Shown here: in pieces, positions 7,165 through 18,557 of the stretch
Position numbering within the stretch: position 1 is the first letter of the stretch
How the letters are laid out: each line of letters begins with the position of its first letter
Assembly (NCBI GenBank): GCA_026395995.1
Contig: JAPLXQ010000002.1
Location: 1-35,814, forward strand
DNA length: 35,814 bases
DNA from: Candidatus Nomurabacteria bacterium
GTDB taxonomy: Bacteria > Patescibacteriota > Minisyncoccia > Phycocordibacterales > UBA9973
Reading direction: 5' to 3'
The notes under the pieces: generated by a model
The model's input: only the letters and a program-made list of their open reading frames with translations
Database searches by the model: none
What the model was told of the DNA's origin: nothing
Position numbers and translations under genes: made by a program

Positions 7165-8139
7165 ATGGCATCCGAGATAGAAAATTTAAAAAGGCAGTTT
7201 TTGGAATATTTGGAAATTGAAAAAGGTTCCAGTATTAAAACTGTCGAAAATTATGGGCACTACCTCACTCGGTTTTTTGAATATACAAAGATACAAAATG
7301 CGAAAGAAATTACTGACCAAGTTGTTCGTGAATTTCGTCTCTGGCTGAATAGACAATCTACTGGTAACAACAGAGCCACAGGAAAAACCTTATCTAAAAA
7401 AACTCAGAATTATTATTTGATAGCACTTCGCGTGTTTTTAAAATTCTTAGCAAAGAGAGACATCACATCACTCCATGCTGACAAGATAGAGCTCGCAAAG
7501 GTTCAAGAGAGATCTCTCGACCTCATTTCCCCTGCTGAACTTTCTAGATTATTAAATGCACCAAAAGACAATGATTTGAAATCTCTGCGTGATAAAGCAA
7601 TTCTAGAATTACTTTTTTCTACAGGACTCCGTGTTTCAGAACTTTGCTCACTTACTAGTGATTTGGATTTGAGTGTCGACGAATATTCTATTCGTGGAAA
7701 AGGTGGTAAGGTTCGCGTTGTATTTATTTCCGAAGATGCACGAAATGCAGTGAAAGCGTATTTAGCAAAAAGAAAAGATATGAGTGAAGCCCTTTTTATC
7801 CAAGTCGGTAAAGAAGTGAATCAAAAGAAAAAGCACCCCCACCCAACCTCCCCCTTAGCGAAGGGGGAGGAGAAAAATTCTTTCGATACAAAAGCATTAA
7901 CAAGAAGGTCAATAGAAAGAATTGTAAAACAATATGCGACGATGGCTGGGATTTCTAAAAAGGTTACTCCACACGTAGTGAGGCACTGCTTCGCTACTGA
8001 TTTACTTTCCAATGGTGCCGACATTCGCTCTGTGCAAATGATGCTAGGACATTCCAATATCGCCACAACACAAATCTATACTCACGTGACAGACAAGCAA
8101 CTTCTCGAAGTGCATAAGAAATTTCATAGTAAAAAATAA
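7165..8139 (+). CDS. Tyrosine recombinase XerC/XerD family
   Basis: TGLRVSEL, HVVRHCFATDLLSNGADIRSVQMMLGHSNIATTQIYTHV; catalytic R/H-x-x-R/H/Y present. Confidence 0.92.
   Translation: MASEIENLKRQFLEYLEIEKGSSIKTVENYGHYLTRFFEYTKIQNAKEITDQVVREFRLWLNRQSTGNNRATGKTLSKKTQNYYLIALRVFLKFLAKRDITSLHADKIELAKVQERSLDLISPAELSRLLNAPKDNDLKSLRDKAILELLFSTGLRVSELCSLTSDLDLSVDEYSIRGKGGKVRVVFISEDARNAVKAYLAKRKDMSEALFIQVGKEVNQKKKHPHPTSPLAKGEEKNSFDTKALTRRSIERIVKQYATMAGISKKVTPHVVRHCFATDLLSNGADIRSVQMMLGHSNIATTQIYTHVTDKQLLEVHKKFHSKK
7833..7879 (+). repeat. Palindromic repeat inserted in frame within the recombinase gene
   Basis: gcacccccacccaacctcccccttagcgaagggggaggagaaa, encoding KHPHPTSPLAKGEEK. Confidence 0.75.
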
Positions 8140-13021: not shown

Positions 13022-14554
13022 TTATTTTGTTACACCATGCTTTTTGTGTAATTGCAAAACTTCTTTTTCTTCGAGTTCTTCTTTCTTTTCTTTCGCTTTT
13101 TCTCCAAGTGCTTTTAGCTCGCTGTCCGATAGAGAATTTAATTCAACCACACGGACATCGAGGTACTCACGGACATTTTTACTTGGGTCATCAAGGACTT
13201 CTTCTAATAAAGCATTTAAAATAAAGCCCATTTTTGGACCGGCTTTTATGCCAAGTTCGTTCATTAAAATAGCCCCATCTATTTTTAATTGTGAAACAGA
13301 GATAGGGTCACGTAAACATTCTTCGATCATTGCATGATATTTGCGAAGTCTGTAAGGAGCTTCTTTTTTCTTCATACCGACACGGTCGCATTCGCGAACT
13401 TGCATCAAATCCCAAATATTAGTTTTCCCCACATTTACAATTACTCTTCGTACCGCAGATAAAGTTATAGTTTCTGTGTCAGAGAAGAACATATGATAGC
13501 GAACTAACTTTTCTACTTTTTGACATATATTTCCCGGATACTTTAATCTCTCCATTATTTTTTTTACCATTCGTGCACCGACGACTTCGTGCCCGTAGAA
13601 AGTATACTTCCCTTTTCCTCCAGCTTTTGTTCCGTCCCATCTGCGAGTGCGTGGTTTACCGATATCATGAAAGAGTGCAGAGAGCCTTATATCTAAAGGT
13701 TCATTTTTATCTGCAGCATGACCGAGTGCGTGCAGGATATGATCGAAGACATCATAAATGTGTTCACCTTTTTGTTCACAATGTATTCCCTCTTCGAGTT
13801 CAGGAATAATATGTTGCAACAATTTTAATTTTGAAAGCATTCCGATACCTGTCATCGGATATTTAGACATAATTATTTTTGAAAATTCATCACGAATTCT
13901 TTCGAAAGAAATATTTTTTATTAAGTCAGAGTTTTCCACAATTGCAGAAATTGTCTCGTGAGAAATTACGAAATCCAATTCTGTGGAAAACCTCACGGCA
14001 CGGATTAATCGCAAAGCATCCTCGTTAAACCTTTCTTTCGCATCCCCCACTGTACGGATAGTTTTGTTTTGTATGTCCTTTATACCTTCAAATAGGTCTA
14101 CTAGGTGTCCTTTAGAATTTAGCGCTAATGCGTTTATAGTGAAGTCGCGTCTTTTAAGGTCATCATTGATGCTTTGACTGAATTTAACCTCGTCTGGGTG
14201 TCTTTTATCGCTATATAAGCCCTCTATTCTATAGGGTGTCACCTCGATTATGTCGTATTTGGTTTCTTGTGAAACATCCTCTCCTGTTGTTTCACGAATA
14301 ACACATACTCCAACTGTACCGAACTTGTTCTCATAGATAGTTTTCTCGAACAAAGGCATTATCTGCTCTGGGTTGGCATTTGTCGTGATGTCCCAGTCTT
14401 TCGGTTCCCTGCCAATGATCATGTCTCTTACACATCCACCGACTAAGTACGCTTCAAAACCTCCTTTCTCTAAAGTAGTTAAAATACTTAAAACCTTTTC
14501 AGGTACTTTTTCTATTAAGTTTTTTGTAAGTGTCTCCACTTTGTTTTCGTGCAC
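13022..14554 (-). CDS. cca: CCA-adding tRNA nucleotidyltransferase / poly(A) polymerase family with HD domain
   Basis: YLVGGCVRDMIIGREPKDWDITTNANP, RRDFTINALALN, RLIRAVRF, HDIGKPRTR. GTG start at 14554 preferred; the longer ORF in the track reads through tRNA-Arg. Confidence 0.9.
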   Translation of the reverse strand: MHENKVETLTKNLIEKVPEKVLSILTTLEKGGFEAYLVGGCVRDMIIGREPKDWDITTNANPEQIMPLFEKTIYENKFGTVGVCVIRETTGEDVSQETKYDIIEVTPYRIEGLYSDKRHPDEVKFSQSINDDLKRRDFTINALALNSKGHLVDLFEGIKDIQNKTIRTVGDAKERFNEDALRLIRAVRFSTELDFVISHETISAIVENSDLIKNISFERIRDEFSKIIMSKYPMTGIGMLSKLKLLQHIIPELEEGIHCEQKGEHIYDVFDHILHALGHAADKNEPLDIRLSALFHDIGKPRTRRWDGTKAGGKGKYTFYGHEVVGARMVKKIMERLKYPGNICQKVEKLVRYHMFFSDTETITLSAVRRVIVNVGKTNIWDLMQVRECDRVGMKKKEAPYRLRKYHAMIEECLRDPISVSQLKIDGAILMNELGIKAGPKMGFILNALLEEVLDDPSKNVREYLDVRVVELNSLSDSELKALGEKAKEKKEELEEKEVLQLHKKHGVTK

Positions 14555-14567
14555 CCGGAGGGATTCG
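14549..14567 (-). repeat. Direct copy of the tRNA-Arg 3' end
   Basis: gtgcacccggagggattcg at 14549-14567 and at 14667-14685. Confidence 0.9.
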
Positions 14568-14656
14568 GCCACTACATGGCCAGGTATTTTTCCATTCTTA
14601 CTAGAATAAGGAAAAATCTTTCGAATACCCTCACAAAAGCAAATAAATTTGCTTTT
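14549..14656 (-). ncRNA. tRNA-linked three-way-junction element, Arg copy
   Basis: P0 AAAAGCAAAT-TT-ATTTGCTTTT; P1 GAGGG(T)ATTCG/CGAATCCCTC; P2 ATTTTTCC/GGAAAAAT; P3 GGCCAT-GTA-GTGGCC; its 3' end copies 19 nt of the tRNA-Arg 3' end. Confidence 0.65.
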
Positions 14657-14667
14657 TCGGTCGCTTG

Positions 14668-14739
14668 TGCACCCGGAGGGATTCGAACCCCCAACAACTG
14701 CTTCGAAGGCAGGCATGATATCCATTTCACTACGGGTGC
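14668..14739 (-). tRNA. tRNA-Arg (anticodon TCG), no encoded CCA
   Basis: Acceptor GCACCCG/CGGGTGC, discriminator A, anticodon loop CTTCGAA, T-arm GGGGG-TTCGAAT-CCCTC. Confidence 0.93.
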
Positions 14740-14845: not shown

Positions 14846-15502
14846 ATGAGATCAGATAAAGATAAAGCATTTAAACTTAGAAAAGAAGGTAAAACATACA
14901 GAGAACTTGAAAAACTGCTCACTATTTCACGCAGCACTCTTTCTGAGTGGTTTAAAGATGAAGAATGGTCAAAGTACATAAAAAAATCAAATTATATTAG
15001 TAACGTTAAATTAAGTACTGAAAGAATAAAAGATTTGAACGACAAGCGACAGGCGTTACTAGATAAAACATATAAATTAGTAGAAAAAGAAGCTGAGCAG
15101 GAGTTTGAAATATATAAAAATAACCCTTTATTTATGGCTGGATTGATGGTTTATGCTGGTGAAGGTGATAAAATTAATAAACATATAACAAGAGTAAGTA
15201 ATACAGATTTTTATTTACATAGGATTTTTATAGATTTTTCTGTTAAATTTTTAAATATTGTAAAAAAAGATATAAAAATTGCTCTTATAATTTATGGAGA
15301 TAATGTAGAATCAGATTGTATAGATAAATGGTCGAAAGAACTTGGTATTTTAAAGAGTAATTTTTATAAAACACAGGTAATAGTCGGAAAAGAAACAAGA
15401 AGAAAATTGCAATATGGTGTAGGAATGAGTATAATATCTGGTAAGGTTGTGGTTAAGAAAAAAGTAGTAAAATGGTTGGAGTTGTGTAAAGTTAATTTTT
15501 AA
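14846..15502 (+). CDS. HTH plus LAGLIDADG-like (homing-endonuclease-type) protein
   Basis: N-terminal HTH AFKLRKEGKTYRELEKLLTISRSTLSEWFKD; LFMAGLMVYAGEGDK resembles LAGLxDGEGx; start at 14846 preferred over 14549. Confidence 0.6.
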   Translation: MRSDKDKAFKLRKEGKTYRELEKLLTISRSTLSEWFKDEEWSKYIKKSNYISNVKLSTERIKDLNDKRQALLDKTYKLVEKEAEQEFEIYKNNPLFMAGLMVYAGEGDKINKHITRVSNTDFYLHRIFIDFSVKFLNIVKKDIKIALIIYGDNVESDCIDKWSKELGILKSNFYKTQVIVGKETRRKLQYGVGMSIISGKVVVKKKVVKWLELCKVNF

Positions 15503-16806: not shown

Positions 16807-16877
16807 CGGGCTGTAGTATACCGGTAGTACACGTGTTTTGGGAACACGTTGACTGGGTTCGATTCCCAGCAGCCCGA
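16807..16877 (+). tRNA. tRNA-Pro (anticodon TGG)
   Basis: Acceptor CGGGCTG/CAGCCCG, loop TTTGGGA, T-arm CTGGG-TTCGATT-CCCAG. Confidence 0.95.
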
Positions 16878-16880
16878 ACT

Positions 16881-16912
16881 AGAAAAAGCACAGAGAAATC
16901 TCTGTGCTTTTT
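16881..16912 (+). terminator. Terminator downstream of tRNA-Pro
   Basis: aaaaagcacagaga-aatc-tctgtgcttttt. Confidence 0.75.
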
Positions 16913-16928
16913 CGTTGTGAGGGCTGGA

Positions 16929-17031
16929 GAAAGAAAATTTATTTTCTTTCGTTGGGATATCGAAAGACTTTTCCGTACGAGCGTAGCGAGGTGGAAAAGT
17001 ACCTGGCTATGTAATAGCCGATTCCCAGCAG
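16929..17031 (+). ncRNA. tRNA-linked three-way-junction element, Pro copy
   Basis: P0 GAAAGAAAAT-TT-ATTTTCTTTC; P1 GTTGGGA(T)ATCG/CGATTCCCAGC; P2 ACTTTTCC/GGAAAAGT; P3 GGCTAT-GTA-ATAGCC. Confidence 0.65.
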
Positions 17032-17042
17032 ATATACTTGCG

Positions 17043-17075
17043 TCTGGGAGTCGAAGGAGATTCCCAGCAGCCCGA
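17043..17075 (+). repeat. Second partial copy of the tRNA-Pro T-arm/acceptor 3' end
   Basis: gattcccagcagcccga at 17059-17075 identical to 16861-16877; preceded by tctgggagtcgaagga. Confidence 0.85.
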
Positions 17076-17567: not shown

Positions 17568-18557
17568 ATGAATAAAGAAAGATTAAGTTTAGAAGAAGTA
17601 AAAAATCTTTTACTTAAAAATGATGTAAGAACAATAGTGTCTTATATCGGAAAAGGCTGGATCCCAGAGATCGCCTACAACGAAAAAGAAATGTCTATTG
17701 ACGCAGTCATTTTGGCTGAGACAATGGGGGTTAAAGATTTTACAGAACCATTTATTGATGAAACTGAAGCCCGTGGAATCTTATGTTTGCCAGCGACAGC
17801 AAATATCTTTGATTTTTGTAAAAAAAAGCGAATCAATGTTTATCGTTTGGCAGATATTAAAGGTGTAGCGTATCTTTTCCGTAAATCGGATTTAGATAAA
17901 TACACCGGCCTTGGTTTGGAGTTGCACCCTTTTGCTGTCGAAGAAATTCAGCGAAGAAACATTATGAGTGTAATCTCTGAAATGTTCCCAATGATTTCTC
18001 GTATTTTTGAAACAGAACGAGGGGTACAAATCTTGGAAAGATATCTAGAAGGTGAAACTCTTGAAGAAATAGGTAGAATTCATGATTTGACGAGAGAACG
18101 TGTACGTCAAATACTGGGAAAAACAATTCTTAGGACGAGACACCGGACACCAATAATCTCTAAGTGGTTTAAAGTTTTTTCTAAAACAGAATACGCTACC
18201 TTGGATCCGGAGAAAGTTCTCAAGCTATTGGAAAGGGGCAAAGAGCTTGAAAAAGAAAATCAAACACTGAGGATTAGTCTGGAAGCTGTCTCAAGGCTTT
18301 CTAATTCTGAAGTTAATGCTGAACTTTCTAAAATAGAAGAAATTCTAAAAAAACAAAGCATTCTTCAAAAACCAGTCGTTGACCTTGATCTTTCAGTGAG
18401 AGCACTGAATACATTAAGGGCTTGTGGTATGGAAACATTAGCAGACGTTGTTAATTTTTCTGAACTTGAACTTTTGCAATTTAGAAACTTCGGCAAAAAA
18501 AGCTTGGACGAAGTTAAAGAAATGTTAGCCTTTCATGGGCTAACATTAAAACAATAA
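17568..18557 (+). CDS. Sigma-70 region 4 / RNA polymerase alpha-CTD fusion protein
   Basis: LERYLEGETLEEIGRIHDLTRERVRQILGK (sigma r4 HTH) and LDLSVRALNTLRACGMETLADVVNFSELELLQFRNFGKKSLDEVKEML (alpha-CTD HhH). Confidence 0.85.
   Translation: MNKERLSLEEVKNLLLKNDVRTIVSYIGKGWIPEIAYNEKEMSIDAVILAETMGVKDFTEPFIDETEARGILCLPATANIFDFCKKKRINVYRLADIKGVAYLFRKSDLDKYTGLGLELHPFAVEEIQRRNIMSVISEMFPMISRIFETERGVQILERYLEGETLEEIGRIHDLTRERVRQILGKTILRTRHRTPIISKWFKVFSKTEYATLDPEKVLKLLERGKELEKENQTLRISLEAVSRLSNSEVNAELSKIEEILKKQSILQKPVVDLDLSVRALNTLRACGMETLADVVNFSELELLQFRNFGKKSLDEVKEMLAFHGLTLKQ

Follow-up and report, generated by a model that had tools for sequence, protein, structure and literature searches.

Short folded elements next to tRNA genes in Candidatus Nomurabacteria: probable insertions of a small protein-free mobile element with a target-complementary arm

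In E. coli K-12, the rttR/rtT repeats (RF00391) follow tRNA-Tyr as tandem units that close with a repeat of the 3′ end of that tRNA, and a stretch complementary to the T-arm of tRNA-Tyr, GGGGAAGGAT, lies 5′ of the rtT core. The rtT RNA is reported to be released during tRNA processing; rtT is known only at tRNA-Tyr and is not known to have been described as a target-guided mobile element. Integrase islands and phages that reside in tRNA genes share with their target a block of identity from the T-loop to the gene end, and the gene is restored by the copy that the element brings. Comparable features are found on contig JAPLXQ010000002.1 of Candidatus Nomurabacteria (assembly GCA_026395995.1), of which 35,814 nt of the forward strand were analysed (the window, that is, this whole stretch of DNA). 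Two related elements of about 100 nt lie in it, one after tRNA-Pro (16928-17031, plus strand) and one after tRNA-Arg (14555-14657, minus strand). A preliminary description had quoted both sequences as copies of a novel structured element, and both are indeed present after the two tRNA genes. Its overall reading is partly supported: it overlooked that the elements are inserted, that they are bounded by gene-end copies, that the P1 strand matches the target, that empty sites exist and that a related core type has targets other than tRNA genes. The bounds it gave were also too short, since the right end is the second copy of the tRNA 3′ end and an arm complementary to the acceptor strand lies 5′ of the P0 hairpin.

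The feature is best read as an inserted mobile element that is small (about 100-130 nt), encodes no protein and is non-autonomous, a reading to which we give a probability of about 0.62. The family, previously unnamed and found in Patescibacteria, probably moves as structured RNA or single-stranded DNA. Comparison of sequences documents its layout, empty sites, arm specificity, conserved core, several core types and targets of both tRNA and protein-gene kind, and from these we infer that the element is mobile.

The insertion evidence begins with the ends. In the window, the 3′ end of each tRNA (copy 1) recurs beyond the element (copy 2), and in the wider family a copy of the end of the element's own tRNA, matching at 12 or more of 13 nt, is present in 58 of 87 cases, as against 0.04% when tRNAs are swapped. 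Empty sites complete the picture. In relatives with an empty tRNA-Arg, the gene end GGGTGCAC is followed by aataagttggaaacacttc and runs straight into cca; in the window, the filled tRNA-Arg is followed by the element, a second GGGTGCAC and then gaaaacaaagtggagacactt, and the flank 3′ of copy 2 is the sequence that directly follows tRNA-Arg in the empty relatives. Similarly, four genomes with an empty site have a spacer of 17-25 nt between tRNA-Pro and tRNA-Gly, and four of the filled ones have a spacer of 120-138 nt, with flanks alike. The direct end copies and the empty sites in sister genomes thus show that about 100 nt, together with a second copy of the gene end, were inserted.

The search proposed with the preliminary description, that is, a covariance model built from the Pro and Arg copies only, recovered further homologues by tRNA 3′ ends in 46 of 100 related genomes, which fall into 18 of 41 genera. 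The best E-value in a genome other than that of the window is 2e-21; these values are rough, and the genomes are mostly draft and metagenomic. A third strong copy in the window's own genome follows tRNA-Leu-taa (G000:C13:245245-245348). Of 82 matches, 68 begin no more than 57 nt past a tRNA on the same strand; 18 isotypes serve as hosts, and tandem copies occur. Within the genus, occupancy is patchy (29 of 60 genomes). Named matches to an exact core pattern belong mostly to Candidatus Nomurabacteria/Paceibacterota, and a search of 2.9 million viral contigs, made as a test of phage carriage, gave no match to an exact core pattern.

With regard to the fold, the preliminary description had proposed an AT-rich hairpin (P0) followed by a three-way junction of P1, P2 and P3. 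The Arg copy gives this fold; when the Pro copy is folded by itself, P2 is paired otherwise in the structure of lowest energy. The junction part is nonetheless far more stable than chance, with -30.9 kcal/mol (Pro) and -28.4 kcal/mol (Arg), corresponding to z-scores of -4.9 and -4.2 against dinucleotide shuffles, none of 200 of which was as stable as either copy. The larger alignment, of 67 distinct rows, bears out a conserved structured element: 93.4% of cells pair against 70.6% in shuffled controls, two-sided changes are seen in 30 of 33 base pairs, compensatory cells number 480 against 134, and sliding the partner by one column lowers pairing to about 52%. Because the rows were aligned by means of the model, such pair counts lean towards the structure, but the shuffled and slid controls were built from the very same alignment. 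P0 is 98% paired across the family and all nine of its pairs show two-sided change. G-T exceeds A-C pairs (124:30) in each of the four helices, which points to the tRNA-sense strand as the one that folds, though model fitting can raise G-T somewhat. Covariation had been claimed for four stems; in P0, P2 and P3 it is independent evidence of an RNA fold, whereas differences in P1 mostly track the identity of the neighbouring tRNA, and its covariation is therefore not. As had been supposed, the elements fall outside named families: those of the window have no Rfam match at the gathering threshold, nor do ten related loci down to E=1. An intrinsic terminator, i.e., a GC hairpin directly followed by a T-run, does not describe them either, the structure being branched and ending in tRNA sequence; separate terminator-like hairpins stand 5′ of many elements.

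What distinguishes P1 is its relation to the target. The arm consists of two halves, the P1 5′ strand being directed to the T-arm of the tRNA and the stretch before P0 to the acceptor strand, while P0 is placed between them and faces the point at which T-arm and acceptor stem meet. The arm thus covers the target around the site of insertion. With nt 59-65 of its own tRNA it reaches a score of 16.4 (maximum 18.1), compared with 11.5 +/- 2.2 against other tRNAs, and 65 of 88 arms rank in the top 5% against swapped tRNAs. In all six tRNAs with A57, the arm has T opposite. In one genome (G040), the elements at tRNA-Leu(taa) and tRNA-Leu(tag) have cores that are 98% identical and arms that differ, each matching its own tRNA. 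Moreover, where copy 2 has diverged, 40 of 43 arms fit the real tRNA better (p = 3e-9), so that target matching accounts for much of what looks like covariation in P1.

This preference bears on a first alternative, namely that the elements are resident regulatory or tRNA-mimic RNAs linked to tRNA genes, in which an acceptor/T-arm minihelix with a tRNA 3′ end as its terminus is re-formed by P1 and the left arm, and the RNA is released during tRNA processing, as reported for rtT. The covarying fold on the tRNA-sense strand, the shared orientation and usual nearness of element and tRNA, and the retention of P1 with copy 2 at some loci without an upstream tRNA all agree with it. A resident RNA would not, however, be expected to prefer the tRNA over the element's own copy, nor to be patchy with empty sites, to be separated from the tRNA by terminator-like hairpins in many cases, or to share its layout with a core type at protein-gene ends. 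We consider it unlikely, and a mobile element is the more natural reading than a regulatory RNA trailing a tRNA.

The same match could also be a mutational by-product and not a guide, if template switching during replication (quasipalindrome correction) copies the tRNA end onto the arm; this is the chief rival on how arms are rewritten. Copy 1 and the arm do form a close near-palindrome, at times long and nearly perfect, as in the near-complete genome G348, where arm and tRNA end make up one long near-perfect inverted repeat around a terminator-like hairpin. P0, too, evolves faster than the core yet remains paired in type I and II elements; in two Ser elements, core identity is 96% and P0 identity 56%. 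Against such correction, Nomurabacteria arms retain bulges and mismatches rather than turning perfect, and arm ends cluster near nt 53-54; the insertion itself would be left unaccounted for. Template switching as the explanation seems to us quite improbable.

The plan is not confined to one core or to tRNA genes. A type III core, unrelated to that of the window, reads GGGTCGG-hairpin-GTGGAGGAAGG-hairpin-GGTGAGAT and was found at further tRNA insertions in G348, where signs of a fourth core type are also present. The type III covariance model matches in 22 of 100 relatives and in 55 of 117 genomes of the order. Of 47 type III loci that were read, 30 follow tRNAs, with inverted copies of 8-26 nt and direct copies of mostly 13-19 nt, a few loci having been misplaced by the automatic reading. 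At nine further sites the insertion adjoins the end of a protein gene; to judge by their sequences, these genes are rpsI (five genomes), rpmG (two), rplK (one) and, at its start, murD (one); in the last case, a 41-nt direct repeat spans the start of the coding sequence. Arm complementarity is individually significant in five of the nine. At rpmG of one genome (G066), the two gene-end copies differ almost solely at synonymous positions, which suggests that selection on the coding sequence probably acted on the two of them until a short time ago; one of them may have come from another lineage along with the element. Three tRNA loci (Table 1) share this layout of P0 and gene end but carry what may be yet another core type (GGCGGA...GGGTCG...GACCGA).

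The element itself encodes no gene, and the enzyme families that might move it were compared across 60 genomes of the genus. Reverse transcriptase shows no association (16 of 29 genomes with the element, 15 of 31 without). Neither do Y1 transposases, which several element-bearing genomes lack, and IS110 occurs in no element-bearing genome of the genus. One genome (G052) with four element copies has no reverse transcriptase, Y1 transposase or IS110. No integron integrase and no extra tyrosine integrase tracks with the element, most genomes having one of Xer type. This housekeeping Xer recombinase, present in nearly all genomes, may be the acting enzyme. In the window's genome, the only tyrosine recombinase found is encoded at 7165-8139 (+) and is Xer-like.

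The near-universal Xer-type recombinase also agrees with a third explanation, in which larger islands moved by a tyrosine recombinase lost their cargo and left the elements behind as scars or minimal attachment sites; the repeat spans the T-loop to the tRNA end, as with known tRNA-targeting integrases, and the gene is kept whole by a gene-end copy. Against it, the core is conserved and covaries among species in which the targets differ, the plan is common to several unrelated cores, no extra integrase follows the element, and no cargo-bearing longer version was found within 6 kb after any tRNA of G348. This explanation is in our judgement very unlikely.

A protein of 218 aa (14849-15502, plus strand), encoded between tRNA-Arg and tRNA-Gly, was tried as a partner; it has a GEG-K motif and matches a helix-turn-helix weakly. 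Its relatives number one to five per genome in 29 of the 60 genus genomes and often adjoin tRNAs; six of these genes are no more than 2 kb away from an element, against about 0.4 element-gene pairs expected by chance. The predicted fold (pLDDT 88) has no significant match in the PDB. The candidate was rejected: in three species the gene lies between the same two tRNAs although the covariance search found no element at that tRNA-Arg, and the proximity is attributed to shared tRNA hot spots.

Returning to the mobile element, its unit would consist of copy 1, often a terminator-like hairpin, the arm and the structured core; in the window's type, the arm is bipartite with the P0 hairpin between its halves, and the core is P2 and P3 on the three-way junction. 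The unit would insert ahead of the host's own gene end, which would become copy 2, and the copy 1 that it bears would complete the functional gene and thereby keep it intact. Acting as RNA or single-stranded DNA, the arm would pair with the target and pick or hold it, while a trans-acting protein would bind the core and do the chemistry. Several points weigh against this account besides the bias of pair counts mentioned above: no movement has been observed, no enzyme was found among the reverse transcriptase, tyrosine recombinase, Y1 and IS110 families, comparison of the rpmG copies with relatives did not settle which is native and which element-borne, and, if the arm is fixed in the element, each new target needs a rewriting of the arm that is unexplained.

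Table 1. Parts of the two window elements and loci of a possible further core type.
Feature	Position	Strand	Basis
tRNA-Pro(tgg), host gene of Pro element	16807..16877	+	ARAGORN, Rfam
Copy 1 at tRNA-Pro, final 17 nt of gene, GATTCCCAGCAGCCCGA	16861-16877	+	repeat search
Terminator-like hairpin between tRNA-Pro and element	16882..16913	+	direct reading
Left arm GTTGTGAGGGCTGG, part-complementary to tRNA-Pro acceptor 3′ strand	16914..16927	+	score 18 against own tRNA
P0 of Pro element, AT-rich hairpin	16928..16950	+	family-wide pairing
Pro P1 5′ strand (target-complementary arm) with conserved GAAAG	16951..16966	+	arm scoring
Pro core: P2 16967-16974/16993-17000, ACCT, P3 17005-17019	16967..17019	+	covariation
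Partial copy 2 of tRNA-Pro 3′ end (12 nt), P1 3′ strand	17020..17031	+	direct reading, repeat search
Further short arm-like stretch CTGGGAGTC, then full 17-nt copy of tRNA-Pro 3′ end (17059-17075)	17044..17075	+	direct reading, repeat search
tRNA-Arg(tcg), host gene of Arg element	14667..14739	-	ARAGORN, Rfam
Copy 1 at tRNA-Arg, final 18 nt of gene, GAATCCCTCCGGGTGCAC	14684-14667	-	repeat search
Left arm GCGACCG, complementary to tRNA-Arg acceptor 3′ strand (1 mismatch, 1 G-T)	14658..14664	-	score 14
P0 hairpin of Arg element	14635..14657	-	covariation
Arg P1 5′ strand (target-complementary arm) GTGAGGGTATTCGAAAG	14618..14634	-	arm scoring
Arg core: P2 14617-14610/14593-14586, ACCT, P3 14581-14567	14567..14617	-	covariation
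Arg copy 2, exact 18-nt repeat of tRNA-Arg 3′ end	14549..14566	-	sequence reading, repeat search
Possible further core type at tRNA-Gly	L142:411-544	-	
Possible further core type at tRNA-Lys	L063:1290-1421	+	
Possible further core type at tRNA-Arg	L072:373-489	+	

The arm-like stretch and the full end copy that follow the Pro element are probably the leftover of another unit. At four loci without an intact upstream tRNA (L054, L067, L078, L091), a common TTCGAAC-TTT-TCC-like stretch is found upstream, and P1 with copy 2 is retained. As for the neighbouring genes, the longest open reading frame of cca, i.e., tRNA nucleotidyltransferase (13022-14725, minus strand), extends in frame back through the Arg element into tRNA-Arg, so that automatic start calls there would be wrong. 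In addition, a protein encoded at 17568-18557 (+) combines a sigma-70 region 4 domain with the C-terminal domain of the RNA polymerase alpha subunit.

Compared with described systems, the elements resemble tRNA-targeting integrative elements in having a direct end repeat with an intact gene on one side, but no recombinase was found in or with them beyond the one of Xer type that most genomes have, and they differ from integrase islands in having no integrase and no cargo, a length of about 100 nt, a conserved folded core and a target-complementary arm. Like integron attC sites, they are short and conserved in structure, with a folded strand that bears bulges; unlike attC sites, their stem strands vary with the neighbouring gene and fixed R/L boxes are missing. 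With IS110 bridge RNAs and the guides of IS200/IS605 type they would share target recognition by nucleic-acid pairing, which is only proposed here, whereas they have no transposase of their own and a long direct repeat, and the element-bearing genomes lack IS110 and several of them Y1 transposases. The genomic reverse transcriptase that would mark a retroelement (group II intron or retron-like) is not a constant companion. No account of such elements was found in the open-access literature. As to rtT, the layout is alike, in that the 3′ end of the upstream tRNA is repeated where each unit closes, but membership was rejected: the RF00391 model has no match in the window's genome while recovering the E. 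coli control, and the reverse search reached 7.3 bits only, so that covariance models reveal no homology whichever of the two is taken as the query. It is possible, though we hold it doubtful, that these elements represent a new kind of mobile element, that is, protein-free RNA or single-stranded DNA units with a base-pairing guide arm rewritten for each new gene, carrying a replacement gene end that leaves essential tRNA and ribosomal-protein genes unharmed, with several unrelated cores sharing the plan and E. coli rtT as a relic. If so, a widespread class would have been overlooked by gene finders and RNA databases because of its place in short spacers and its lack of a protein, and a changed arm should lead to a changed target, which can be tested. 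It would then be another case of nucleic-acid pairing that directs insertion, small enough to be reconstituted and acting in indispensable genes, and would hint at how the tRNA-end repeats (rtT) of E. coli arose.
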